Virus record (IMG/VR): IMGVR_UViG_3300031851_000146
Coordinates: 1-26,864 of that record
Reading direction: 5' to 3' (one strand)
DNA length: 26,864 nt
Source of the DNA: a virus
The translations under genes and the position numbers were made by a program. Position 1 is the stretch's first letter. Every line of letters starts with the position of its first letter. Shown one piece after another: positions 2,387 to 26,585 of the stretch. A model generated the notes under the pieces. The model saw nothing but the letters and a program-made list of their open reading frames with translations, was not told the DNA's origin and did no database searches.

Positions 2387-5300
2387 ATGGCAACAGTAAC
2401 TTCATCAAAAAGACAACTAACACACACCTCTAATACTTACGAAAGTAATGGAGATGTTACTATAGGAGGTAACCTGAATATCAATGGTACTACTACGACT
2501 ATTGATACAGCTAACCTATTAGTTGAGGATAAGAATATAATTATCGGTGATGTGTCATCTCCTACTGATAGTACAGCAGACGGTGGTGGAATTACCTTGA
2601 AAGGAGCTACAGATAAAACGATTAACTGGGTTAACTCGACAGATTCTTGGACATCTAATCAGAAATTCTCTGCTCCCAGTTTAACATTAACAGGTTTAAC
2701 CACTTCTTCAGAAACAACTGCTTTGCTTATTAACGCTAGTAATCAGGTTGTTAAAAGGACTCTTGGGTCTAATGCATTTAATAGTACTTCATTTTTAACT
2801 GGAAACCAAACTATTACATTAAGTGGCGATGTAAGTGGGTCAGGAACGACTTCAATTTCAGTTACGGTTGCTGACGATTCACACAATCACGTTATCTCTA
2901 ATGTTGATGGTTTGCAGTCTGCATTAAATGGTAAGTTGAGTACATCAGGTAAGGCTGCGGATTCGGAACTTCTTGATGGTATTAATAGTACGAGTTTTGC
3001 ACGGACTGACGCTGCGGATACATTTAGCCAAAGAATTCGTTTTGATAATTGTAGTACCAACAACCATGACAATATGGCAGTTAGCACCCAGAATCTGGGT
3101 GGGCTTGAAGTTTTCAACAGTGGATCAGGCAATGACGCTTTTATGGCTTTCCATACTTCTAGTGACTATGCCGTGTATTTTGGATTAGACGCAGATAGCA
3201 ACAAATTATCTGTAGGTGGTTGGTCATTGGGAGCTAATAAGTATGAGATTTATCATTCTGGAAATAAACCCTCTCTGGCTACACTAGGTTATACTGGAGC
3301 GACTAACGCTAACTATATAACCAACAATAACCAGCTTACCAACGGTGCTAATTATATTACTGGAAACCAAACTATCACATTAAGCGGTGATGTAAGCGGG
3401 TCAGGAACGACTTCAATTTCAGTTACGATTGCTGACGACTCTCATAATCACATTATCTCTAATGTTGATGGGTTACAAAGTGCGCTAGACGGAAAGGCTA
3501 CAGCAGGTGATGAAAACATCATTGATGGCGCAGCATCTATTTGGAATGCTGATGGTGATGGTGATGTATTTGATTATAACGATTCAAACCCAACACATAA
3601 TGGCAAATCAACTGGAGCTGTACTTAACATTCGTGGAGACGGTACTAATGATCATTCGCTTGTAAGAGCAGGTATATTCACATCTAATCACGTTTCTACT
3701 GCTAATGGATATTATGTTGGAACCCTTTTAGGAACATCTAATTCTACTACTACGCAGGTAATTAATGGTTCTGGTGAATGGACAGGAAGTGTTATTCCTG
3801 CTGCAAAGCTTAGTACGGCGACTACACAATCCTCAAGCGAGAATAGCACCAAGATAGCAACGACTGCTTATGTAAAATCTCAAGGTTATGTAACATCAAG
3901 CGGGAATACTGTTATCGGAACCGATTCTGATATTAACACATCTGGTGCTACTGTCATTGATCAGTTGAATATGACAGATGGCGTGATCCAATCACACAGC
4001 ACACGGACCCTGACCCTCGCCAACCTTGGTTACACTGGAGCCACTAACGCTAACTATATAACCAACAATAACCAACTTACCAACGGTGCTAGTTACTTAA
4101 CAACATCAGGTAAAGCTGCTGATTCACAAAAGCTTGATGGTATTGATTCTCTTAGATTTCCTTATGCTCTTACTGGAACTTTAGGAAGCACAAATACATT
4201 TGTTACTGATGGTGGGATAGGGGCCGATAATATCACACGTTCGATGTTCTACAGGGACAACGGTAACCAGTTTGGAACTATTGGATTCAATGCACAACAC
4301 GCCACCTCCACAGGTTATTCTTGGCAGATGGCTAGCACTAGCTATTCCGATGCTTCGGCTATTCAAGCACGAGTTAAAAACAATGGAACTTGGTCAAGCC
4401 CTGTAACAATTTGGAATAGTGGCAACGATGGATCTGGTTCTGGGTTAGATGCTGATACACTTGATGGGCTACAACTAAATAGCGATGATAGGAATGACAG
4501 CGCAAATGTAGTGTGTAGAACGCAGGGTAATGGGTATGCTTATTTTGGCTGGATAAACACAACATCAGGTAATAATAGCACTACAGCTATAAGTAGAATC
4601 TATGCATCCCATGATGGTTTTATTCGCTACTATACACCTGCGAACTTTGGAGCGCAGATTGGCTCTCATATTAGTTATAATGATTTAACTAATAAACCAT
4701 CAATTCCATCACTCTCAGGATATGCAACAGAATCATATGTAGGAACACAGATATCTAATCTAGTTAATGGTGCGCCAGCAGCGTTGGATACACTTAATGA
4801 GTTGGCAGCAGCAATTGATGATAATGCAAGTTACGCTGCGTCTATCACTACTGCATTGGCTGGGAAGCAGGTAGCAGGAACATACAATACCATTATCGGA
4901 ACCGATTCTGACATCAATACGTCTGGGGCTACGGTTATAGATCAGTTGAATATGACAGATGGTGTGATCCAATCACACAGCACACGAACACTGACACTTG
5001 GAGATCTTGGTTATACTGGAGCCACTAACGCAAACAACTACTCATTGCCAGCAGGATCTAGTTCGACACGGGGTGGTTTCAAGATTGGATATACTGAGAG
5101 CGGTAAATATTACCCCGTTGAAGTCGATTCTTCAGAGAAGATGTTTGTTAATGTTCCTTGGACTGATACAAACACTAACACAACCTACTCTGCTGGGACG
5201 GGGATCACGTTAAGCGGAACTACGTTTTCTCTTACGGATACAGCTTCGAAGGCAAACCTAAGTGGGGCAACCTTCACTGGTGATGTTACAATTGGTAATG

Positions 5301-7285
5301 GATCTGCTGACACGAACCTTCACATTAAAAAATCGGATAATAATGTTTCTGATCATATTGTTTTCTATAACGGAACAACTCGTGTTGGTGAGATTGGGGT
5401 TGAAGATACAACTTGGTTGAGAATTAACCAAGAGACAGCTAAAAATATTTATACCCCACGATATATTCGTGCTGATGGTGGGTTCTTTGTTGATGGATCA
5501 TCTAAAGGCATTAATGGTTCTGGGAACTTTGTTGGAGGTACAATTACTGGAGCGAGTGATGCGAATGTTTCCAACTGGAATACCGCATATGGATGGGGGA
5601 ACCACGCTTCTGCTGGTTATGTCACTTCAAACACTCAACTTTCGACTGAGCAAGTTCAAGACGCTGTAGGCGCGATGCTTTCAGGCAACACTGAAAGTGG
5701 GATTACAGTAACCTACGATGATACCAATAATGAGATTGACTTCACAGTTGCATCTCAGACTGACCAGAACTTCACTACCGCATTAAAATCTAAGTTAGAC
5801 GGTATCGCTACTAGTGCTAACAACTATTCGTTGCCACTTTCCTCCAGTTCGACACGAGGTGGAGTTAAGATTGGGTTCACCGAAAGTGGTAAAAATTATC
5901 CAGTAGAACTTGATTCGTCGGAGAAGATGTTTGTTAACGTACCTTGGACAGACAACAATACAACTTACTCAGTAGGAGATGGTGGATTAACTCAAAAAAA
6001 CTTTACGTCTACGCTTAAGACTAAGTTAGATGGTATTGCAACTGGTGCTACAGCTAATACTGGAACACTTACCTCTGTCGGTTTATCGGTCGGAACTGGT
6101 CTAGATGGGGGAGGAACTGTTACTGGCTCCAGCGGTAGCTTTAATTCTATCACATTAGATCTATCAGAACTAACTGATATGACTGGTGGTATTGACCCAT
6201 CTGTTGACGAAATCATTCTTCTTGATAATGGTGCTGAAAGAAGAAAGCGATTCGCTGAAATTTTTGGGTCTAATGCTTATAACTCTACTACGATTCCTAC
6301 TAATAACAACCAGCTTACTAACGGTGCTGGGTATGTAACCTCAAGTGGTAACACAATTATCGGAACAGACTCTGACATCAATACGTCTGGGGCTACGGTT
6401 ATAGATCAGTTAAATATGACAGATGGGGTGATAACCTCACATTCTACAAGGACAATAACCCTTGCAAACCTTGGTTATACTGGAGCAACTAACGCTAACA
6501 ACTATTCGTTACCACTTTCTTCTAGTTCGACACGAGGTGGTGTTAAGATTGGGTATACCGAAAGTGGTAAAAATTATCCAGTCGAACTTGATTCGTCGGA
6601 GAAAATGTTTGTTAATGTCCCTTGGACTGATACAAATACCGATACAAATACGACATACTCCGCTGGTAGAGGTCTAGATCTTAGCGGGACTGAATTCCAA
6701 TTAGAGACTGATCTCCGAGATAGTATTAGTTATATTGGTTACGATAGTAATGATTACATTCAGTGGTCAAATAACAGTTCTGTTAGAGCGGTAGTCGCAG
6801 GGACACAAAGATTTATTGTTGGTACTTCTGGTATTGATGTTACAGGAAATGCTACTGCTGACACTTTTAGAACTGACACTAATAATGTTAATTATAATTT
6901 AATTACACGGAACCATAGTAGTAACACCCTATATGTTCAAGCTGCTCAATCGAATAGCACACAAGGCATCGCTTCATTTAGGTATGGTAGTACCGCAGCA
7001 GCACAAGGAACTGAGGTTCTAGCGGTGAGAAGAAATTCTAGCTACTTTGCTAATACTAAATTAGGAATTGGCACTACTAATCCGAGTACAGCTCTTGATG
7101 TGAGCGGGACTATTCACCAGACAATATACAATGCGACTAGCTTGCCGTCTGCTTATCCAGCAGGTCAGAGGGCATTTGCTTACAGCTTCTATCCTTTAGC
7201 GACTTCTCACGGATCTGTTGTAAGTACAAACGGTAGTTATGTAGTACCAGTTTACTCTGACGGTTCTTCGTGGAGAGCAGGTTAA
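2387..7285 (+). CDS. Long tail fibre protein with repeated modules, 1632 aa
   Basis: This Gly/Ser/Thr/Asn-rich protein starts 4 nt after the previous stop. The N-terminal region (about residues 15-90) contains NGDVTIGGNLNINGTTTT and VEDKNIIIGD, a pattern I recognise from structural proteins of T4-like marine phages. The body holds motifs that recur several times: SGDVSGSGTTSISVT with SHNHVISNVDGLQSALNGK, LGYTGATNANYITNNNQLT, and SSSTRGG-KIGYTESGK. These behave as beta-repeat fibre modules with His-x-His and LDGxxxx units like those of trimeric phage fibres. The C-terminus (from about residue 1560) switches to a different non-repeated domain that may be the receptor tip. Repeats are nearly identical at DNA level in places. 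It is probably the main host-recognition fibre; no separate assembly chaperone is visible next to it. Confidence 0.8.
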   Translation: MATVTSSKRQLTHTSNTYESNGDVTIGGNLNINGTTTTIDTANLLVEDKNIIIGDVSSPTDSTADGGGITLKGATDKTINWVNSTDSWTSNQKFSAPSLTLTGLTTSSETTALLINASNQVVKRTLGSNAFNSTSFLTGNQTITLSGDVSGSGTTSISVTVADDSHNHVISNVDGLQSALNGKLSTSGKAADSELLDGINSTSFARTDAADTFSQRIRFDNCSTNNHDNMAVSTQNLGGLEVFNSGSGNDAFMAFHTSSDYAVYFGLDADSNKLSVGGWSLGANKYEIYHSGNKPSLATLGYTGATNANYITNNNQLTNGANYITGNQTITLSGDVSGSGTTSISVTIADDSHNHIISNVDGLQSALDGKATAGDENIIDGAASIWNADGDGDVFDYNDSNPTHNGKSTGAVLNIRGDGTNDHSLVRAGIFTSNHVSTANGYYVGTLLGTSNSTTTQVINGSGEWTGSVIPAAKLSTATTQSSSENSTKIATTAYVKSQGYVTSSGNTVIGTDSDINTSGATVIDQLNMTDGVIQSHSTRTLTLANLGYTGATNANYITNNNQLTNGASYLTTSGKAADSQKLDGIDSLRFPYALTGTLGSTNTFVTDGGIGADNITRSMFYRDNGNQFGTIGFNAQHATSTGYSWQMASTSYSDASAIQARVKNNGTWSSPVTIWNSGNDGSGSGLDADTLDGLQLNSDDRNDSANVVCRTQGNGYAYFGWINTTSGNNSTTAISRIYASHDGFIRYYTPANFGAQIGSHISYNDLTNKPSIPSLSGYATESYVGTQISNLVNGAPAALDTLNELAAAIDDNASYAASITTALAGKQVAGTYNTIIGTDSDINTSGATVIDQLNMTDGVIQSHSTRTLTLGDLGYTGATNANNYSLPAGSSSTRGGFKIGYTESGKYYPVEVDSSEKMFVNVPWTDTNTNTTYSAGTGITLSGTTFSLTDTASKANLSGATFTGDVTIGNGSADTNLHIKKSDNNVSDHIVFYNGTTRVGEIGVEDTTWLRINQETAKNIYTPRYIRADGGFFVDGSSKGINGSGNFVGGTITGASDANVSNWNTAYGWGNHASAGYVTSNTQLSTEQVQDAVGAMLSGNTESGITVTYDDTNNEIDFTVASQTDQNFTTALKSKLDGIATSANNYSLPLSSSSTRGGVKIGFTESGKNYPVELDSSEKMFVNVPWTDNNTTYSVGDGGLTQKNFTSTLKTKLDGIATGATANTGTLTSVGLSVGTGLDGGGTVTGSSGSFNSITLDLSELTDMTGGIDPSVDEIILLDNGAERRKRFAEIFGSNAYNSTTIPTNNNQLTNGAGYVTSSGNTIIGTDSDINTSGATVIDQLNMTDGVITSHSTRTITLANLGYTGATNANNYSLPLSSSSTRGGVKIGYTESGKNYPVELDSSEKMFVNVPWTDTNTDTNTTYSAGRGLDLSGTEFQLETDLRDSISYIGYDSNDYIQWSNNSSVRAVVAGTQRFIVGTSGIDVTGNATADTFRTDTNNVNYNLITRNHSSNTLYVQAAQSNSTQGIASFRYGSTAAAQGTEVLAVRRNSSYFANTKLGIGTTNPSTALDVSGTIHQTIYNATSLPSAYPAGQRAFAYSFYPLATSHGSVVSTNGSYVVPVYSDGSSWRAG
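2798..3471 (+). repeat. Two-copy 113-nt in-frame repeat in the fibre gene (2798-2910 and 3359-3471)
   Basis: The stretch encoding the SGDVSGSGTTSISVT ... NVDG module occurs twice with only scattered, mostly third-position differences. Copies start with actggaaaccaaacta and end with aatgttgatgg, and both lie in the same reading frame. This points to duplication or recombination within the fibre gene. Confidence 0.85.
3911..6499 (+). repeat. Three-copy ~144-nt in-frame repeat in the fibre gene (3911-4054, 4892-5035, 6356-6499)
   Basis: Each copy encodes IGTDSDINTSGATVIDQLN followed by MTDGVI, SHSTRT and LGYTGATNAN. Copies 2 and 3 share long identical runs (the segment around acatcaatacgtctggggct), whereas copy 1 is more diverged and has other synonymous codons. 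The repeat is dispersed rather than tandem, with unrelated modules between copies. Confidence 0.85.
5033..6630 (+). repeat. Three-copy 134-nt in-frame repeat in the fibre gene (5033-5166, 5819-5952, 6497-6630)
   Basis: Each copy encodes NNYSLP, SSSTRGG, KIG(Y/F)TESGK, YPVE(V/L)DSSEKMFVNVPWTD. In the first and third instances this module directly follows the 144-nt module, so the two together form a larger cassette present at about 4892-5166 and 6356-6630. The second instance stands alone, which suggests module shuffling. Confidence 0.85.
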
Positions 7286-7287
7286 TA

Positions 7288-7315
7288 TTGAAAATAAAAT
7301 CAAAGAAACTATAAT
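7288..7315 (+). promoter_or_regulatory. Sigma70-like promoter for the glycan operon, -10 almost touching the start codon
   Basis: TTGAAA (7288-7293), a 16-nt spacer and a perfect TATAAT (7310-7315) fill the gap after the fibre stop codon. Only 5 nt separate the -10 box from ATG 7321 and no Shine-Dalgarno sequence is present. Transcription would start at or next to the start codon. Confidence 0.65.
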
Positions 7316-7320
7316 ATATT

Positions 7321-7665
7321 ATGCCAATTACAAAAGAAACACCATTAGTGATCCCAGCAAAAGCAGAGAAAACTCTCCCGCATACATGGGTATCAGAGCT
7401 TGTTGTTAATGCTCCTAATGCCTCAGATGGTTATATGAGCTTAAAGCTTACTGCATTTGATTCAGATTCTGATGAAGATCCAAGTTCTGAAAATTCAGAA
7501 ATACTTCATTTAGACTTTTGGGAAGTTGTCGCTAACGTTCCAGAAGCAGCTACTGCTATGCAATCTGTATTTGATGCGATACCAGCTATTGAATCATACT
7601 ATAAAGAAGGAATATTAGAAGAAGCTCCTATAGAAGAAGATGCCGAAGAAGTCGAAGGTGATTAA
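7321..7665 (+). CDS. Acidic hypothetical protein, 114 aa, first gene of glycan operon
   Basis: I do not recognise a family. The protein begins with a beta-rich segment (residues ~20-60, including TWVSELVVNAP and GYMSLKLTAFDSD) and ends in a strongly acidic tail (EEAPIEEDAEEVEGD). There is no signal peptide or membrane segment. It starts 6 nt after a strong promoter-like sequence and its 3' end overlaps the glycosyltransferase ORF by 26 nt. It follows the tail fibre, so it could be a small fibre accessory or structural protein co-expressed with the glycan enzymes. Confidence 0.65.
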   Translation: MPITKETPLVIPAKAEKTLPHTWVSELVVNAPNASDGYMSLKLTAFDSDSDEDPSSENSEILHLDFWEVVANVPEAATAMQSVFDAIPAIESYYKEGILEEAPIEEDAEEVEGD

Positions 7666-8377
7666 CTATTATTTTATGGTTTGCGAAGCTCTTCATGAGA
7701 AGAGAACTAAACCATTGTATAATACTGTCATTAAAAGAATCAAAGATTGTGAAGATAATTTTTATCTTTTGGGAGGAGTTGAAGCAATTGATGAAATTCC
7801 AGTAATAAAGGTTTGCGATCTTGATGACTACCATTCTTGTGTTGAAAAAATAGAATCAGTATTTAAGAAAGATTGGTGTGATGCTGATTGGCACATAATT
7901 TGTGACGATGATACTTTCATCCACACTGAGAATTTAAATTTATTTATAAGTAAATTGCCCGAAGATAATTTGAGAATATATTGCTCCCAGCTTTACGAAG
8001 ATAGCGTTGGTATATTCGGAGGGGCTGGCATTTTAATGAATGATAAAACTTTTAAATTGATCAAGAAATTTGTAAAAGAAAATGGATGGAAAGAAAATAG
8101 ACATTTTCAAAGTCATTCTGACATAGCATTGTCGCAAATGTGTTATCGTTTAAATAGGAAGCTAAAAGCTGCGAATAAAAAAAATGATAAAATATATGTT
8201 GTTAACCCCAAGCCAATGTATTCTTTTAATAATGATACAATGAAAAAAAGTCAAAAGTTAATCAATATAAAGAAAGATCTTATCACCGCACACATTAAAG
8301 ATATGCAATATATCTGGACTGACTTTAATGAACAAGAATGCCCTTACCAATCGTTAGAAAATGCCTTTTGTAGATAG
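7640..8377 (+). CDS. Fringe-like (GT31-type) glycosyltransferase
   Basis: A 245-aa protein with the landmarks of Fringe/beta-1,3-galactosyltransferase folds: a DDD metal-binding motif at residues 89-91 in WHIICDDDTFIHTENL, and GGAGILMN at residues 127-134, which matches the GGAG(I/Y) segment of C1GalT/Fringe enzymes. A downstream SHSDIALSQMC resembles their catalytic acidic loop. It should transfer a sugar from a UDP-sugar to a glycan acceptor; donor and acceptor cannot be read from sequence. The chosen start overlaps the previous gene by 26 nt. An internal ATG at 7676 would remove the first beta strand (KVINYYFMV), so the longer form is preferred. It opens a tightly coupled series with the sulfotransferase, GT2 and UDP-galactopyranose mutase genes. 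A phage-borne GT31-like enzyme is unusual. Confidence 0.75.
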   Translation: MPKKSKVINYYFMVCEALHEKRTKPLYNTVIKRIKDCEDNFYLLGGVEAIDEIPVIKVCDLDDYHSCVEKIESVFKKDWCDADWHIICDDDTFIHTENLNLFISKLPEDNLRIYCSQLYEDSVGIFGGAGILMNDKTFKLIKKFVKENGWKENRHFQSHSDIALSQMCYRLNRKLKAANKKNDKIYVVNPKPMYSFNNDTMKKSQKLINIKKDLITAHIKDMQYIWTDFNEQECPYQSLENAFCR

Positions 8378-8954
8378 TGATAAAACATTTGCCTTTGTGC
8401 ATATTCCAAAATGTGGAGGTAGATCTATTAAAAAAGTTTTTAATATTACAAAGCATAACCACTATGGGATATCTGAACTGGGGTTCAATCCTACTGATTA
8501 CTGCCCTAACTTATCTGTAGATGATTTGTTTAAATTTGCGTTTGTCCGTAACCCTTGGGATAAATTTGTCAGTGCATATGAATACCTCAAAAGAGGGGGA
8601 ATACCTCGTTATGACAGACCTAAAACACTAGCGATTAAACAAGAATATCCAAAGTTCAAGGATTTTATACTTGCGAAACATGTTTGGGAACAATGGATTT
8701 TTTTCAAACCACAATTAGATTTCATTACTGTAGACGGATCAATTAAAACAGATTTTGTGGGTAGGTTTGAAAATTTTCAAAATGATTTTGATTTTGTTTG
8801 TGATCAAGTCGATACTCCTAGAGTAAAACTTCCTCATGTAAACGCAACAAAACACGCTCATTATACTGAATATTATGATGATCAATTGATAAAGGTTATT
8901 GAGAGAACTTTTTCAGAGGATATAGAAACGTTTAAATACAGATTTGGCGATTAA
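8361..8954 (+). CDS. Sulfotransferase, Sulfotransfer_2-like family
   Basis: This 197-aa protein carries both PAPS-binding elements of carbohydrate sulfotransferases: the 5'-phosphosulfate loop HIPKCGGRS at residues 14-22 and the 3'-phosphate loop FVRNPWDKFVSAY starting at residue 61. The family transfers sulfate from PAPS to hydroxyl or amino groups of sugars. The C-terminal part (GRFENFQNDFDFVC, LPHVNATKH, HYTEYYDD, FSEDIETF) is shared with a second paralogue at 26001-26585. It overlaps the GT31-like gene by 17 nt and shares one base (TAATG) with the GT2-like gene, so the three are translationally coupled. The likely substrate is a glycan built by its neighbours. PAPS would have to come from the host, as no PAPS synthesis gene is visible here. 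Confidence 0.85.
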   Translation: MPFVDSDKTFAFVHIPKCGGRSIKKVFNITKHNHYGISELGFNPTDYCPNLSVDDLFKFAFVRNPWDKFVSAYEYLKRGGIPRYDRPKTLAIKQEYPKFKDFILAKHVWEQWIFFKPQLDFITVDGSIKTDFVGRFENFQNDFDFVCDQVDTPRVKLPHVNATKHAHYTEYYDDQLIKVIERTFSEDIETFKYRFGD

Positions 8955-9739
8955 TGGTTACTTTTATTATATGTGTTAAACATTACGAAAACTGTCATTC
9001 ATACAATGATACTTGGGATTTATTAGAAAATACTTTAGTTTCTGTTTTCGGTCAGCTAGATAAAAGATTTGAGGTTATAGTGGTTTCGAATAAGACATTA
9101 AATGAATTCCCAGATAATCCCAAAATTAAAGACATAAAGTTTGTAGAAGTTGATTGGCTCCCTCCATCATTATCCAATGCTTGGCAAATAGGTACTCAAG
9201 TAAGTGTCGATGATGGGATGCGCCAAATTAGATTAGATAGAGGTACTAAATATATTTTGGCTTTAAATGAAGTTGATGATGATAATTACGTTATGTTTGT
9301 TGATGCGGACGACTTCATACATAGAGATTTAGTTAGAACTATTCATAATTCAAACAAAGATTTTTTAAGAATAAATAAAGGTTTTAAAATGGGTATAGAC
9401 GATACGTTTAAACGTGTTGGTGATTTTAATAAAAGATGTGGCACTTGTAATATAACTAAAGCAAGCATACTTAAAAAACAAATTGATTTTAAAAATGTCA
9501 ATCTAAGTTCATGCCAGAATACTATAATCAAATCTACACAAAATTATTATTTGATAAAAGTTATCGGATCTCATGCATTGTCATGGGACTATTTTAACCA
9601 TAAAGGTTATGAAGGTGGGGATATTGAGTTTAGAGCAGCGATATACAACTGCTCTCATAATGAGCAACACTCAGGTAAAGCTAATTTAAAGTACTCTCAG
9701 GAAATTAGTAAGAGTATGAGATTGCATTTTAACATATGA
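8954..9739 (+). CDS. GT2-type (GT-A fold) glycosyltransferase
   Basis: The 261-aa protein begins with the strand-helix of a GT-A nucleotide-sugar fold (VTFIICVKHYENC), has a mid-domain beta strand RFEVIVVSN at residues 38-46, and the DxD motif as VMFVDADDF at residues 113-121. This order is typical of family 2 glycosyltransferases, which attach a sugar from an NDP-sugar. A histidine-rich tail (SWDYFNHKGYEGGD and beyond) may serve acceptor binding. It is AT-rich: one spot-counted 60-nt line (9361-9420) has 27% GC. It sits between the sulfotransferase and UDP-galactopyranose mutase; a galactofuranosyl donor is therefore possible but not shown. Confidence 0.75.
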   Translation: MVTFIICVKHYENCHSYNDTWDLLENTLVSVFGQLDKRFEVIVVSNKTLNEFPDNPKIKDIKFVEVDWLPPSLSNAWQIGTQVSVDDGMRQIRLDRGTKYILALNEVDDDNYVMFVDADDFIHRDLVRTIHNSNKDFLRINKGFKMGIDDTFKRVGDFNKRCGTCNITKASILKKQIDFKNVNLSSCQNTIIKSTQNYYLIKVIGSHALSWDYFNHKGYEGGDIEFRAAIYNCSHNEQHSGKANLKYSQEISKSMRLHFNI

Positions 9740-10728
9740 AGTTTGCTATTGTTGGTTGCGGTTTAAGTGGGATAACAAGTGCGCGATTGCTAAAAGATCA
9801 AGGGCATGAAGTCCAGATTTTTGAATCTCGCAATCATATTGGAGGCAACTGCTATGACAGTAATGTGTGTGGAACTATCATGCATAACTATGGTCCTCAT
9901 ATTTTCCATACTGATGATGAAGAGGTTTTTAAATTTTTGTCTAAATATACAGAATGGACCCCGTTACATTACAGACCAATAGGTCGTACAATAATTGGAG
10001 ATATACCTCTTCCTTATAGCGATAAAGGTTGTGAGGAGGCTATTGGATTTAAACTTACAGAACAAGAAGTTGTTGATCTTGTCTTTTGTGATTATAGCGA
10101 GAAGCAGTGGGGAGTTCCATTTAATGAGATCCCATCAAGCATAACGAATAGAATCCCCAAGACGAAGGGTTATGAAAGCCCAACTTGGTTTGAAGGACAA
10201 AAATATCAATGCGTACCGAAAGAAGGATACACAAAGATGTTTGAAAAAATGCTTGATGGAATTGAGATCTTCTTAGGTTGCTCTAAAAACGATTGGAAAA
10301 ATTCATCTTATGACAGGTTGATTTATACAGGCAAGATAGACGAATATTTTGATAATTGTTACGGGAGTCTACCATATAGAACCCTTGATTTCGAACACAA
10401 GGTAACCTCTAAAAAACAAAATACCTTGGTTTTCAATGAGTGTAATTATAGCAATCCTTGGACTCGCCAATATGATCATTCGTATTTTACAACTGACCAT
10501 AGTGGTTTGACAGTCATAACGAGAGAGTATTCAAGAGATGCTAAAGAGAACGATATTCCTTTTTATCCTATCCCTTGGGGCGACCCACACAAAAAATATA
10601 AGAACTATAAAGCACTAGCAGACAAGGAAAAAAATACAATTTTTTTAGGCAGATTAGCTCAATATAAGTATTTAGATATGTGGATGGCCATAAAACACGC
10701 ATTTCTGAAAATAAAAAAAATAAATTAA
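9736..10728 (+). CDS. glf: UDP-galactopyranose mutase
   Basis: This flavoenzyme interconverts UDP-galactopyranose and UDP-galactofuranose, supplying Galf for cell-surface glycans. Diagnostic features are the N-terminal FAD-binding GCGLSG (residues 7-12), the acidic end of the second strand in IFESRNHIGGNCYD (28-41), the UGM-specific NYGPHIFHT (51-59), and YQCVPKEGYTKMFEKML in the second half. At 330 aa it is shorter than the usual 360-390 aa of bacterial Glf, mostly through a compact mid-section. It overlaps the GT2-like gene by 4 nt (ATGA), so substrate supply and sugar transfer are probably co-expressed. Galf is absent from many bacteria, so the phage may introduce this sugar to its host or virion. 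Confidence 0.93.
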   Translation: MKFAIVGCGLSGITSARLLKDQGHEVQIFESRNHIGGNCYDSNVCGTIMHNYGPHIFHTDDEEVFKFLSKYTEWTPLHYRPIGRTIIGDIPLPYSDKGCEEAIGFKLTEQEVVDLVFCDYSEKQWGVPFNEIPSSITNRIPKTKGYESPTWFEGQKYQCVPKEGYTKMFEKMLDGIEIFLGCSKNDWKNSSYDRLIYTGKIDEYFDNCYGSLPYRTLDFEHKVTSKKQNTLVFNECNYSNPWTRQYDHSYFTTDHSGLTVITREYSRDAKENDIPFYPIPWGDPHKKYKNYKALADKEKNTIFLGRLAQYKYLDMWMAIKHAFLKIKKIN

Positions 10729-10746: not shown

Positions 10747-10774
10747 TTGAATTATTCTTAGCGTAACCTATAAT
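10747..10774 (+). promoter_or_regulatory. Sigma70-like promoter before the lysis region
   Basis: TTGAAT (10747-10752), a 16-nt spacer and a perfect TATAAT (10769-10774) lie in the 55-nt gap after glf. The -10 box ends 9 nt before ATG 10784, with no Shine-Dalgarno sequence, so the transcript would have a leader of only a few bases at most. Confidence 0.7.
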
Positions 10775-10974: not shown

Positions 10975-11607
10975 ATGCGTTTTTCTGGTAAAGATCAGAT
11001 CGTCAAAGAGGTTCAAAAAAAACTTGGCCTTAAAGCTGACGGGATTGATGGCCCCGCTACATGGAAAATGATTTGGGAGAATCTTGTCCATGAGGACAAA
11101 GGTGAGCCAGAAAAGCCAGAACTGCCAGTCCAAGAATTTAAAGAGGACTACCCTGAAGTTTACAAAGCTTCTCCAAACCAGTCTGGGACGATAAGACCTA
11201 AGTATGTGATTCTGCATCATAGCAGTGGGAGTCATGATGGGACTCGTTCATGGATTTTAAATGCTGCATCCAAAGTTAGTTACCACTATCTTATTGCGCC
11301 TGATGGATCTCGTACACAATTTGTTTATGATAAGAAAAGAGCTTGGCATGCTGGGAGATCTTCTTGGAAAGGTGTGGGCGGTCTAAATGGTCATAGTATC
11401 GGTATTTCTTTTTATGGGGATACCAACAAACGCACACCAAGTGCTGCTGAAATTGATTCCGCTGCCAAGAAATGCAAATACCTTATGGATAAATTTGACT
11501 TTGGGATTGACAATATTCTAACGCACAAGATGATTGCTCCTAATAGGAAGAATGACCCTTCAGATGAGACTTATCAAAAGGTTATCAATCGCATTAAAGA
11601 GCTTTAG
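10975..11607 (+). CDS. Endolysin: N-acetylmuramoyl-L-alanine amidase with peptidoglycan-binding domain
   Basis: The enzyme cleaves the bond between MurNAc and the first L-Ala of peptidoglycan, releasing progeny at lysis. Residues ~5-37 form a short peptidoglycan-binding unit (VQKKLGLKADGIDGPAT). Residues ~75-200 are an Amidase_2/PGRP-like domain: YVILHHSSG with candidate zinc ligand His81 or His82, SYHYLIAPDG, WHAG at 124-127, NGHSIGISFYG, a second ligand His184 in LTHKMIAPNRKNDPSD, and Asp194. A Pro/Glu-rich linker joins the domains. No signal peptide is visible, so export would need a holin; a holin-like gene lies at 12752. It starts 2 nt after the preceding gene. Confidence 0.93.
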   Translation: MRFSGKDQIVKEVQKKLGLKADGIDGPATWKMIWENLVHEDKGEPEKPELPVQEFKEDYPEVYKASPNQSGTIRPKYVILHHSSGSHDGTRSWILNAASKVSYHYLIAPDGSRTQFVYDKKRAWHAGRSSWKGVGGLNGHSIGISFYGDTNKRTPSAAEIDSAAKKCKYLMDKFDFGIDNILTHKMIAPNRKNDPSDETYQKVINRIKEL

Positions 11608-13205: not shown

Positions 13206-13580
13206 ATGAAGTTAGAACCTGTATTTTCAAAAGTACAAAAACACGCTAAGGGATGGGGGGAAGAAATTTGGATCACTAATAATGATTTGTATTGTGGTAA
13301 GATTTTGAAGTTCAATGAGGGTGCGGAGTTTTCTATGCATTACCATGTCAAGAAAGAGGAGACTTGGGCTGTTATGCAAGGGAAATTGATTTTAAAGTAT
13401 TATGATTTGGGTAATGCGGAAGAAAAACAGGTTGAGTTGAACGAAGGAGACACTGTTCATTTGCGACCATGTATTCCTCACAAGCTTATAGCTCTCAAGG
13501 ATTCTAAAGTTTTTGAAGTTAGCACTCAACATTTTGAGTATGATTCTTATAGAATCCAAAAAGGAGACTCACAAAAATGA
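13206..13580 (+). CDS. Cupin protein, mannose-6-phosphate isomerase type II-like
   Basis: A 124-aa single-cupin protein. It has the metal-site pattern HYHVKKEE (His45, His47, Glu51 or Glu52) and a second motif HLRPCIPHKL with His92. The opening KGWGEEIWITNNDLYCGK is like that of sugar-phosphate isomerase or epimerase cupins found in surface-glycan loci. It heads the four-gene operon and overlaps the kinase by 4 nt (ATGA), so a role in making or isomerising the sugar phosphate is likely. Its substrate cannot be assigned. AAGGAG at 13561-13566 near its end is the ribosome binding site of the next gene. Confidence 0.8.
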   Translation: MKLEPVFSKVQKHAKGWGEEIWITNNDLYCGKILKFNEGAEFSMHYHVKKEETWAVMQGKLILKYYDLGNAEEKQVELNEGDTVHLRPCIPHKLIALKDSKVFEVSTQHFEYDSYRIQKGDSQK

Positions 13581-14323
13581 AAATATTAATTATCGGAGAA
13601 TCTTGTTTAGATATTTTTATTTATGGTTCTGCTGACCGATTATGCCCAGAAGCTCCAGTCCCTGTTTTTAAACAAGAGGATGCAGTTACTTTTATGGGTA
13701 TGGCCTCAAACGTCCATAGAAATGTCATTGCTTGCCTTAATGATTTAGGTAAAGAAGCAGAAGTAGATATTAAAAGCAATAAAAGCACTGGAGCAAAGGC
13801 TAGATATATTGACTCTAGCTCCAATCAAATGTTTTTGCGGGTTGATTCAGACGATTACAAAGAGATTAATAAAATAAAATTAAAAGAAGCAAATGTGTGG
13901 TCTTATGACGCTGTAATCGTTTCTGATTACAACAAGGGATACCTTACAGATAGAGATTTGAAATATATTGCAGATAATTCTCAAATGTCTTTCTTAGACA
14001 CTAAGAAAAAATATAATTCCGATTGGGCTAATTCATTTGACCTAATCAAAATCAACAGAAAGGAATACAAAGAGAATGGATTTAAAGGGATGGGTATGGA
14101 TAACCTTATTGTTACTTTGGGGGGTGAGGGATGTAGGTTCAGAGGAAAGAAACACCCTTTGAAATCTGTGTCTCAAGTAAGAGATGTGAGTGGTGCTGGA
14201 GACACTTTCCTTGCTGCTTTCGCGACTAATTATTTATTTAATCAAGATATAGATTTAGCTATTGATTATGCTCAGATTTGCTGTAGCATCGTCGTCAGTA
14301 AAGCTGGAACAGCAACGATATGA
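13577..14323 (+). CDS. PfkB-family sugar kinase, HldE/RfaE N-domain-like
   Basis: The 248-aa protein has GESCLDIFIYG at the N-terminus, RLCPEAPVPVF (residues 21-31, compare RLSPEAPVPV in HldE), SDYNKG (116-121), the NRKEY segment (160-164), the nucleotide-site strand IVTLGGEGC (178-186), and the PfkB signature DVSGAGDTF (203-211) with catalytic Asp209. HldE's first domain phosphorylates D-glycero-D-manno-heptose 7-phosphate at C1. This copy is shorter than the ~315-330 aa domain, mainly in the lid region, so substrate may differ. It lies directly before a stand-alone version of HldE's second domain, so the bacterial fusion is split here. Confidence 0.8.
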   Translation: MKILIIGESCLDIFIYGSADRLCPEAPVPVFKQEDAVTFMGMASNVHRNVIACLNDLGKEAEVDIKSNKSTGAKARYIDSSSNQMFLRVDSDDYKEINKIKLKEANVWSYDAVIVSDYNKGYLTDRDLKYIADNSQMSFLDTKKKYNSDWANSFDLIKINRKEYKENGFKGMGMDNLIVTLGGEGCRFRGKKHPLKSVSQVRDVSGAGDTFLAAFATNYLFNQDIDLAIDYAQICCSIVVSKAGTATI

Positions 14324-14796
14324 ATCACCCTAAAATAGTTGATACATCTACGATCATGCACCGTTTTTCAATGGGAACGGAAAAGATGGCTTTTACGAAC
14401 GGTTGCTTCGACTTATTTCATGCAGGTCACGCGCACCTTCTCCAATCAATAAAAGAAGATTTACCTGACGATTACAAACTAGTTGTTGGTGTGAATGGAG
14501 ATGAAAGTGTTAAGAAAAATAAGGGTTCAGAAAGGCCCATTATTAGCCAAGAGCAGAGAGCTTTCCTTGTGGCTTGCAATGAGTGTGTTGACTACGTTTT
14601 CGTATTTAATGAAGCAACAGTCTCTGGTTACCTGAGACACTTAAAGCCTTCTCGTTGGTATAAAGGGGGAGATTATAGTATCACTACATTACACCCCGCT
14701 GAGAGAGCAGAGTGTGGGCAAACAGAGGTATATTTCATTCCATTCTCTGAAAATATAAGTGCTACCCAGATTATAACAAAAATTAAAAAATTATGA
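14320..14796 (+). CDS. Sugar-phosphate adenylyltransferase, HldE/RfaE C-domain-like
   Basis: This 158-aa nucleotidyltransferase has TNGCFDLFHAGH (residues 26-37, the HxGH active site), VGVNGDESV (56-64), the ERPI segment (71-74), KGGDYS (115-120) and a C-terminal SATQII (147-152). The last two correspond to KGGDY and STTxII of HldE, which sets it apart from glycerol-3-phosphate or choline-phosphate cytidylyltransferases. In HldE this domain joins AMP to heptose 1-phosphate to give ADP-heptose. A ~25-residue N-terminal extension is present. It overlaps both neighbours by 4 nt, so kinase, transferase and phosphatase are translationally coupled. Confidence 0.82.
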   Translation: MNHPKIVDTSTIMHRFSMGTEKMAFTNGCFDLFHAGHAHLLQSIKEDLPDDYKLVVGVNGDESVKKNKGSERPIISQEQRAFLVACNECVDYVFVFNEATVSGYLRHLKPSRWYKGGDYSITTLHPAERAECGQTEVYFIPFSENISATQIITKIKKL

Positions 14797-15101
14797 AAAC
14801 TTTTATCGTAGATATTGATGGGACTATTTGTACCGACAGTCGGGGTAGCTATGAGTTAGCTCGTCCTATGAAAGCTCGTATTGAGTATTTTAATGGATTA
14901 TTTAATAGCGGGAATAAAATAATCTACTGGACAGCTAGAGGGGCTAACTCAGGTAAAGATTGGTCAGAGTTTACAAAGAAGCAACTTGAAGAGTGGGGAG
15001 TCAAATATACTGAGTTAAGAACAGATAAACCAGCATATGACTTTTGGATTGATGACAAGGCTTACAATGGGAATAGGTTCTTTGATGAACTTTATCTTTA
15101 A
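14793..15101 (+). CDS. Small HAD-family phosphatase
   Basis: A 102-aa HAD protein with the DxDGT nucleophile motif (VDIDGTIC, Asp7 and Asp9), motif II in IIYWTARG, and motif III acidic residues in FWIDDKAYN. It lacks a cap domain, as in compact phosphatases of capsule and LPS loci. In the ADP-heptose route a HAD enzyme (GmhB) removes the C7 phosphate between the kinase and the adenylyltransferase steps, and this gene could fill that role, although it resembles generic capsule-locus HAD proteins more than GmhB itself. It overlaps the adenylyltransferase by 4 nt and ends convergently against a minus-strand gene (4-nt overlap). Confidence 0.78.
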   Translation: MKTFIVDIDGTICTDSRGSYELARPMKARIEYFNGLFNSGNKIIYWTARGANSGKDWSEFTKKQLEEWGVKYTELRTDKPAYDFWIDDKAYNGNRFFDELYL

Positions 15102-16524: not shown

Positions 16525-17295
16525 ATGGAAAAAGTAGCTTTCTTAAATTTGACCATAAATTCTTTCACCCAAAACAATGTTTGGAAAAAATTTATCGACG
16601 GTGGTAGTAATGATATATATAATTTATATTTGCACTCCAAGTTTAAAGCTCCAAGCTTGTTTTCTGATTATCAGATAGAAAATATTGTGCCAACAGCTTG
16701 GGGTCATTTCTCATTAGTTGAAGCTACTATAGAATTAATGAAAGCAGCTTTGGAAGATGAGGGGAACGAGTACTTTGCCTTAATTAGTGATTCTCATTTC
16801 CCCTTGTATGATTTGGATTCTACAGTAAATTTAATAAAAGAAAGGTATAAAAAAATGACCTTCACAAAACATTTCAGCTTTCATACGAAAGTTAAAAGTC
16901 AAAAAATATTCAGAGAAGGAGTTAGGGGTTATAATTTTGGAGAATATAATGCAGTTTGTCAGTTTTTCGTTTGTCGCAGAAAAGATGCGATTAGGTTTGT
17001 TGAGACTTTTGATGATTGGGCTAAGTATTTCGTAAAGAATAAGGTTATTTTTGCCGATGAATTTTATTTTTGGGGAATTGCAAAACAGTTGGGTATGGAT
17101 TTTGAGATGGGACAAGCTACAACCTATTCTGATTGGAGTATAAGGAAAGATTCGAAGGGTAATGTTGGCAGGAATCCAAGGGCTTTTAGTAAAATTAGCA
17201 AAGGTATGGTTGACACTTATCGTAAAGATGGGTATCTCTTTGTCAGGAAGATCGTGCCTTCCACTTTTGTGATGGTAGATCCTTTAAATTATTAA
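16525..17295 (+). CDS. Core-2/I-branching-like (GT14-type) glycosyltransferase
   Basis: A 256-aa protein whose central block reads VPTAWGHFSLVEATIELMKA (residues ~57-76), then YFALISDSHFPLYD, CQFFVCRRKDAIRF and ADEFYFWGIAKQLG. This order (WG-x-SLV, Y-x-LISDS-x-PL, QF-x-V-x-R-x-A, DE-x-YF) matches the Branch family of beta-1,6-GlcNAc and xylosyl transferases and their bacterial relatives. It would add a branch sugar to a glycan acceptor. It is the third glycosyltransferase fold in the window. Upstream is a 47-nt divergent region containing TATAAT (16499-16504) without a clear -35. It is immediately followed by thyX, with which it is probably co-transcribed despite the unrelated function. Confidence 0.75.
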   Translation: MEKVAFLNLTINSFTQNNVWKKFIDGGSNDIYNLYLHSKFKAPSLFSDYQIENIVPTAWGHFSLVEATIELMKAALEDEGNEYFALISDSHFPLYDLDSTVNLIKERYKKMTFTKHFSFHTKVKSQKIFREGVRGYNFGEYNAVCQFFVCRRKDAIRFVETFDDWAKYFVKNKVIFADEFYFWGIAKQLGMDFEMGQATTYSDWSIRKDSKGNVGRNPRAFSKISKGMVDTYRKDGYLFVRKIVPSTFVMVDPLNY

Positions 17296-26000: not shown

Positions 26001-26585
26001 ATGATTAGTCATAAAGATAAATTTATATTTATACATATACCTAAGTGTGGTGGTACTTCGATAGAGAGGTTTTTTTTATCCCAATATGGTATAAGTAATG
26101 ATTGGACAAGGGAATACCCTTTGGAAGCATTGCCAATGAAGGTGAGAGCTGAATTCAACATTGGGTTTAAGCAGTCGCAACACATGTCTTTAAGGAATTT
26201 TACATTAGAAAAGCAGGAAGAATATTTTTCTTTTACTTTCGTCAGGAATCCTTGGGACAGGATAATGTCTTCTTACTTATATTCCAAGAGGCTTGGTTAT
26301 GAGTTTACTTTTAAATCTTTTTTTAATTCTCCTGTATTTGAGAGTCACTGCAAACCGCAATCTTATTTTATCAATAAAAATATAGATTTTATAGGTAAGT
26401 TTGAGGATCTACAAGGAGACTTCGATTTAGTTTGCGAAAATTTGGGGATTGAATCCAAACAATTACCGCATGAAAACAAAACGGTTCATAAGCATTATAC
26501 TGAATGGTATACTGATGAAAATAAAAAGCTGGTTCAAGATAAGTATTCTGAAGATATAGAAGCTTTTAATTACAAATTTGGATAA
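26001..26585 (+). CDS. Second sulfotransferase, Sulfotransfer_2-like family
   Basis: The 194-aa protein carries the PAPS 5'-phosphosulfate loop HIPKCGGTS (residues ~12-20) and the 3'-phosphate loop FTFVRNPWDRIMSSYLYSK. The C-terminal half (GKFEDLQGDFDLVCENL, LPHENKTVHKHYTEWY, YSEDIEAFNYKFG) lines up with the paralogue at 8361-8954, with conserved GxFExxQxDFDxVC, LPHxNxTxH and SEDIExFxYxFG. A different N-terminal middle section suggests another acceptor. It sits 6 nt after one tRNA and 7 nt before the next, so it is probably processed from the same transcript. Its ATG has no Shine-Dalgarno sequence. Confidence 0.85.
   Translation: MISHKDKFIFIHIPKCGGTSIERFFLSQYGISNDWTREYPLEALPMKVRAEFNIGFKQSQHMSLRNFTLEKQEEYFSFTFVRNPWDRIMSSYLYSKRLGYEFTFKSFFNSPVFESHCKPQSYFINKNIDFIGKFEDLQGDFDLVCENLGIESKQLPHENKTVHKHYTEWYTDENKKLVQDKYSEDIEAFNYKFG

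Follow-up and report, generated by a model that had tools for sequence, protein, structure and literature searches.

A glycan-enzyme cassette that appears to be exchanged together with the tail-fibre tip of a phage group

The virus record IMGVR_UViG_3300031851_000146 of IMG/VR, 26,864 bases long (the window, to whose full length all coordinates refer), carries at 7640–10728 an operon of four overlapping open frames predicted to encode a GT31 glycosyltransferase, a carbohydrate-type sulfotransferase (ST1), a GT2 glycosyltransferase and a UDP-galactopyranose mutase (UGM). An earlier sequence-only reading had described a four-gene glycan cassette here, and all four frames are present with the identities it proposed. 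It had also placed the cassette right after the tail fibre gene; the coordinates are correct, but this description is off by one gene because a small acidic gene separates the two. The region comprises the following features:

2387..7285, + strand, long tail fibre of 1632 amino acids (PHROG tail fiber, 2.6e-10)
7321..7665, + strand, small acidic protein of 114 amino acids, first gene of the operon (open frame)
7640..8377, + strand, GT31 glycosyltransferase, like Fringe and core-1 beta3-galactosyltransferase, 245 amino acids (profile, motifs, fold, selection)
8361..8954, + strand, ST1, carbohydrate-type sulfotransferase (PF03567), 197 amino acids (Pfam, PHROG, donor-binding motifs, selection)
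8954..9739, + strand, GT2 glycosyltransferase, 261 amino acids (Pfam, DxD motif, fold, selection)
9736..10728, + strand, UGM in a compact viral form, 330 amino acids (Pfam, PDB match, conserved residues)

The acidic gene, which had no family match in Pfam or PHROG, overlaps the GT31 gene by 26 nucleotides; within the cassette, the overlaps are 17 nucleotides (GT31/ST1), 1 nucleotide (ST1/GT2) and 4 nucleotides (GT2/UGM).

Identity and integrity of the cassette enzymes

Regarding the mutase, it matched PF03275 in Pfam with an E-value of 3.5e-55 and solved UGM structures in the PDB at 5.7e-60, and it has the defining residues of the family: the GxGxxG motif binding flavin adenine dinucleotide (FAD), the catalytic arginines, and the active-site His, Trp and Tyr. 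The corresponding residues, G7, G9, G12, H55, W125, R139, R244, Y312 and D314, are conserved in 68 viral UGMs, the last six invariantly; they were matched by alignment to the solved enzyme 1wam, the catalytic arginines being R174 and R280 in the Klebsiella pneumoniae enzyme. ST1 matched PF03567 (1.9e-16) and phrog_3347 (8e-22), and had no match when searched alone against the PDB; it contains the 5'-phosphosulfate loop and the 3'-phosphate site (K, R-N-P, S) of PF03567, and these motifs for 3'-phosphoadenosine-5'-phosphosulfate (PAPS), K17, R63-N64-P65 and S71, are conserved in 191 relatives.

The two glycosyltransferases are more diverged. GT2 is marginal by sequence (PF00535, E-value 3.3e-5, 24.3 bits against a cut-off of 23.3), and its identity is clear by predicted fold: the AlphaFold2 model (mean predicted local distance difference test score, pLDDT, 84) matched SpsA at 1.4e-8 and TarP at 5e-7, with a GT-A fold and an invariant DxD-type motif, V116-D117-x-D119-D120. 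As for GT31, the single protein matched Fringe at 0.02, below the Pfam cut-off; diverged relatives were gathered from viral contigs and aligned to build a family profile. Six of these relatives match Galactosyl_T and nine match Fringe (best 1.5e-20), while the profile found the core-1 beta-1,3-galactosyltransferase C1GalT1 in the PDB at 9.4e-22; in Foldseek the AlphaFold2 model (pLDDT 83) matched Manic Fringe at 3.8e-8, the values for Manic Fringe and C1GalT1 being about 1e-8 to 1e-7. In the alignment of relatives DDD89-91, GG127-128 and D161 are invariant; they correspond to the motifs that mark this GT-A-fold family, namely the DxD-type motif, GG and (E)D. The assignment is thus firm at the family level, and a beta-1,3 linkage is predicted. 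Relatives' profile and predicted folds together therefore identify the cassette as GT31, sulfotransferase, GT2 and UGM.

Pairwise ratios of nonsynonymous to synonymous substitution rates (dN/dS) were 0.09–0.26 for GT31, 0.12–0.19 for the sulfotransferase, 0.08–0.29 for GT2 and, in unsaturated pairs, 0.06–0.09 for UGM; the neighbouring amidase gave 0.04–0.10. By conserved residues and substitution pattern, the cassette genes are intact and under purifying selection, and the enzymes are predicted to be functional. That the genes were once taken from a host and are now in decay is hardly credible: their AT-richness, and a cassette-free relative that retains the 3' end of UGM only, would suit it, but the invariant catalytic residues, dN/dS values far below 1 and intact frames in about ten relatives speak strongly against it for the window copy, and the inactive remnants that the sequence-only reading had named as its refutation are excluded.

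Probable exchange of the cassette together with the fibre tip

Viral contigs yielded relatives of all four enzymes, and the cassette recurs with intact frames in about ten related phage contigs, in the order fibre, acidic gene, GT31, ST1, (second sulfotransferase), GT2, UGM, small gene, amidase. Two further features are needed for the comparison of loci:

10975..11607, + strand, amidase endolysin on the downstream side of the cassette, used as backbone marker and as anchor of the comparison (PHROG amidase, 6.6e-24)
10684..10728, + strand, 3' end of UGM, right edge of the exchange unit (remnant in L185)

The exchangeable part of the fibre is the tip, that is, the last ~50–75 codons, from about position 7066 and ending PVYSDGSSWRAG; it is common to the cassette-positive contigs and different in the three cassette-free relatives L185, L256 and L257, which combine another tip with a diverged acidic gene, only 31% identical to that of the window. 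Wherever a contig has an acidic gene close to that of the window (80–100% identical), it also carries (10/10) GT31, sulfotransferase and UGM, and the contigs of the group with the fibre-tip motif also carry the cassette. One other contig, L264, shares the tip-motif end and lacks the cassette; it was set aside as an unrelated phage, with a fibre/acidic match limited to 22 residues.

The cassette-free relatives define the edges of the unit. On the left, the fibre of L256 and L257, neither of which has the cassette, is 92% identical to that of the window up to 7065 and then continues into the other tip; at the DNA level, the identity of the L257 fibre gene is 91.7% until 7065 and lost beyond. On the right, L185 has the order fibre (with a differing end), diverged acidic gene, small gene, amidase; no UGM was found in this contig, but a remnant between its acidic and small genes matches the 3' end of UGM at 40/46 nucleotides (the next-best place in the window gives 27/46), and its DNA homology to the window picks up again at 10725, at the UGM stop. 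The region is most simply read as one exchanged block of fibre tip, acidic gene and cassette, ending at the UGM stop. Presence of the cassette is independent of backbone descent, because L185, without it, is closer to the window (amidase 87%, o98 95%) than L086, which bears it (amidase 57%, o98 84%). It is therefore probable that fibre tip, acidic protein and glycan enzymes form a tip-linked module and are exchanged together, and this exchange lends support to a role in host recognition.

Variation, origin and genomic surroundings

The composition of the cassette varies among the relatives. Most have a second, tandem sulfotransferase; in L083 a GT25 enzyme (PF01755, 4.2e-15), preceded by a second sulfotransferase, takes the place of GT2; and in L097 the genes after UGM encode LamG lectin-like proteins, as they do by similarity in L086 and L093. 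At L097:1932-4554 and L166:2898-4339 the fibre or UGM genes are flanked by tandem members of a single protein family, the three of L097 matching LamG. The window UGM is 68–69% identical to those of L004, L006 and L012, and the flanking genes are ~80–97% identical, so UGM alleles may swap within the cassette.

In less related phages, sulfotransferases adjoin GT31 relatives or UGM inside larger glycan clusters, and in L029, L049 and L055 sulfotransferases and UGMs occur in such clusters with other enzyme sets; the phage contigs L027, L055 and L215 have four to six sulfotransferase-like genes per cluster. The clusters of L029, L049 and L055 favour an account in which the cassette serves a general modification of the envelope (capsule or lipopolysaccharide, LPS, in relation to lifestyle or grazing) that has nothing to do with recognition, and in which the cassette stays linked to the tip merely as a hitch-hiker, the fibre gene being next to a hotspot of recombination. 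Fibre regions recombine readily, and recombination in the fibre region is seen here too. This account is nonetheless unlikely, since loose linkage would not be expected to give a 10/10 co-occurrence with the acidic gene, nor a cassette present regardless of backbone distance, though the numbers are small.

As for origin, the sequence-only reading had called AT-richness relative to the RuvB-like region consistent with acquisition from elsewhere. The cassette genes are indeed AT-rich (30–36% GC; the window averages 37%), but it is the RuvB-like gene that stands out, with 45%, and GT14, o290 and the second sulfotransferase ST2 are as AT-rich as the cassette; its composition is not special, and acquisition was no longer argued from it. 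Nor does the UGM favour recent uptake; by sequence it is a variant of its family in a compact viral clade: ~30 residues between GGN and QWG are absent in 57/57 viral sequences (spacing 87–88), and the spacing in five cellular UGMs is 118–120. The full-length helical domain of the solved bacterial UGMs, a usual but not strictly defining feature, is not present in the window enzyme. Viral UGM loci (n = 80) are 57–100% identical to the window UGM, and cellular ones only 34–39% (sampled from 196 genomes in the order to which G012 belongs and from 185 in the class of G013), with a sole exception, one phage contig in a bin. Being ~30 residues shorter than its cellular counterparts, the UGM is unlikely to be a recent uptake from a host; it seems to circulate among phages.

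The surroundings of the cassette include these further features:

7288..7315, + strand, sigma-70-like box TTGAAA-16-TATAAT before the cassette operon (best of 71 sites in 18.5 kb)
10747..10774, + strand, sigma-70-like box TTGAAT-16-TATAAT preceding the operon that comes next (shared by several relatives, the cassette-free L185 among them)
13206..15101, + strand, separate nucleoside diphosphate (NDP)-sugar cluster: cupin, PfkB kinase, nucleotidyltransferase, HAD phosphatase (Pfam; HAD PHROG, 5.8e-26)
16525..17295, + strand, GT14 glycosyltransferase, like Core-2/I-branching enzymes, backbone gene (PF02485, 2.2e-19)
26001..26585, + strand, ST2, between tRNA-Leu and tRNA-Met (PF03567, 3e-19)

The box at 7288 is doubtful as a promoter: the number of such sites in 18.5 kb equals the chance expectation, and the box is present in the window and L004 only. 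An argument for early expression built on it was dropped, because it is missing in most relatives and there is no excess of such boxes; the T4-type late promoter TATAAATA likewise occurs no more often than by chance. The NDP-sugar genes resemble a heptose-type pathway and are kept in the backbone whatever the state of the cassette, being found also in L185, L162, L163 and L166; the GT14 gene is likewise found in L185, L163 and L166, all without the cassette. ST2 is 45% identical to ST1. An assignment to a defence system was rejected, the PADLOC match being to the FAD motif of UGM only. In the 118-kb relative G001, the DNA polymerase and the putative portal have only remote matches to isolates. 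From gene content and from their company in searches, the phages of the group would be marine; contigs L232 and L233 of a Flavobacteriaceae metagenome-assembled genome carry the same phage locus and are likely phage contigs in the bin, which gives a weak hint of a Flavobacteriaceae host.

The window also encodes a ThyX-type thymidylate synthase, and phage transferases can hypermodify DNA, as cited in PMC12619734; both would suit transferases that glycosylate phage bases against restriction. No pyrimidine hydroxymethylase was recognised among the proteins scanned, however, and a carbohydrate sulfotransferase, a UGM and coupling to a fibre tip are not expected for base modification, which makes this use of the cassette very improbable.

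Possible role in host recognition

The reading that we favour, with a probability of roughly 45%, is that the cassette supplies the enzymes of a module for host recognition whose target is the receptor glycan of the host. Fibre tip, small acidic protein and glycan enzymes would be inherited and exchanged as a unit; UGM would supply UDP-galactofuranose, GT31 and GT2 (or GT25) would transfer sugars, one of them plausibly galactofuranose (Galf), and one or two sulfotransferases would attach sulfate with host PAPS as the donor. The glycan would be placed on the envelope polysaccharide that the matching tip presumably binds, and infected cells and their debris would then cease to adsorb the progeny or phages related to it; such receptor conversion would be akin to that by Llp of phage T5, but through sugar chemistry. 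What the sequences show is the identity of the genes, their conserved active-site residues, purifying selection and joint exchange with the tip; sugar identity, linkage, acceptor and purpose are inferred. PAPS would come from the host, because no adenosine 5'-phosphosulfate (APS) kinase was found in G001, and so would a lipid-linked acceptor, through host machinery, because no PF02397-type initiating transferase was found in G001, G004 or G007. APS-kinase-like domains occur in sulfotransferase-bearing phages at G007:40043-40285, G008:98183-98434 and G009:99878-100120, and may raise the PAPS supply of these phages.

The same coupling to the tip fits equally well with decoration of the virion, in which the enzymes would add sugar and sulfate to the tip of the phage fibre itself or to the acidic protein, altering adhesion, stability or host recognition. 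It is precisely the genes of these two that the exchange unit takes in; the operon overlaps the acidic gene and comes after a late fibre gene; no segment of the cassette proteins is strongly hydrophobic (Kyte-Doolittle maxima over 19 residues of 0.36–1.24), so that they can act on cytosolic proteins; and glycosylated capsids and tail tubes of mycobacteriophages are cited in PMC12619734. Against it, no sulfated or Galf-bearing phage virion was found in the open-licence papers searched, and the companion sugar genes look envelope-directed. Decoration of the virion is thus a close but somewhat less probable rival, and its specific form, a sulfated, Galf-containing glycan on the tip or acidic protein that would make the receptor-binding end of the virion a sulfated glycoconjugate, with the enzymes travelling with the tip gene, is rather doubtful.

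A host-glycan target is slightly favoured over the virion because the group carries envelope-type sugar genes, sugar-nucleotide and heptosyltransferase-like ones among them. The sequence-only reading holds as to which genes these are and as to a cassette for glycan modification, and its interpretation as a whole is supported in part. Several points weigh against the receptor-glycan target. The envelope-type sugar genes also occur in cassette-free relatives, and host machinery would be needed for the lipid-linked acceptor. The sample is small: the cassette-free contigs are three, with L256 and L257 near-identical, and among the positive ones L003 is the same as the window, and L006 and L007 seem to represent a single phage. 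Finally, exclusion factors are usually early, and the cassette lies among late-looking structural and lysis genes, with a promoter box of its own that is not conserved.

Regarding known systems, the proposed module resembles llp-oad (hrs) of phages T5 and BF23, in which the receptor blocker llp adjoins the receptor-binding gene and is exchanged with it between related phages, so that a receptor-inactivating function beside the receptor-binding gene undergoes modular exchange (PMC4728585, PMC9586334). Here, the genes adjoin the presumed receptor-binding fibre gene and are exchanged with it, in a small sample and with the role of the fibre predicted; an exclusion role would be a further prediction. 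Unlike Llp, a lipoprotein that blocks an outer-membrane transporter, the cassette enzymes would alter a glycan. Jumbo cyanophages of the P-SSM2 type have clusters for LPS/capsular polysaccharide modification, to which PMC7824862 ascribes a supposed role in keeping out rival phages; these share cupin, PfkB, nucleotidyltransferase and glycosyltransferase genes and are sporadic and polymorphic between relatives. The cluster at 13206–15101 fits that description, in which, as far as the section consulted goes, UGM, GT31, sulfotransferases and a tie to the fibre tip are not named, and the phage studied here is of another lineage, with a Pol III alpha-type polymerase. The cassette GT2 shares the fold of TarP, the GT2 transferase of Staphylococcus wall teichoic acid, but is only 13–16% identical to it in the fold alignment. 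Encoded by a single, prophage-borne gene, TarP modifies a glycan that serves as receptor, with a Gram-positive acceptor.

A sulfated, possibly Galf-containing glycan made by a phage had been called unusual; UGMs and sulfotransferases are not rare in phages by themselves. Phage UGMs were already known from Aeromonas, Agrobacterium/Rhizobium and Streptococcus phages (88 records; PMC6630229); these belong to the same family, but among those listed are at most ~38% identical to the window UGM, which is compact, with its 30-residue deletion. The role of sulfotransferases in phage genomes has been described as unclear (PMC10580990). A combined cassette of sulfotransferase, GT31 and UGM tied to a fibre tip was not found in the open-licence papers searched; the parts were known separately, and their tip-coupled combination appears new.

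In conclusion, a cassette swapped along with the fibre tip would connect the sulfated glycans that phages make with host recognition in a concrete way that is open to testing; tip and acidic gene may serve as a marker for finding further such cassettes, and the comparison brings to light a compact clade of viral UGMs that seems to circulate among phages.

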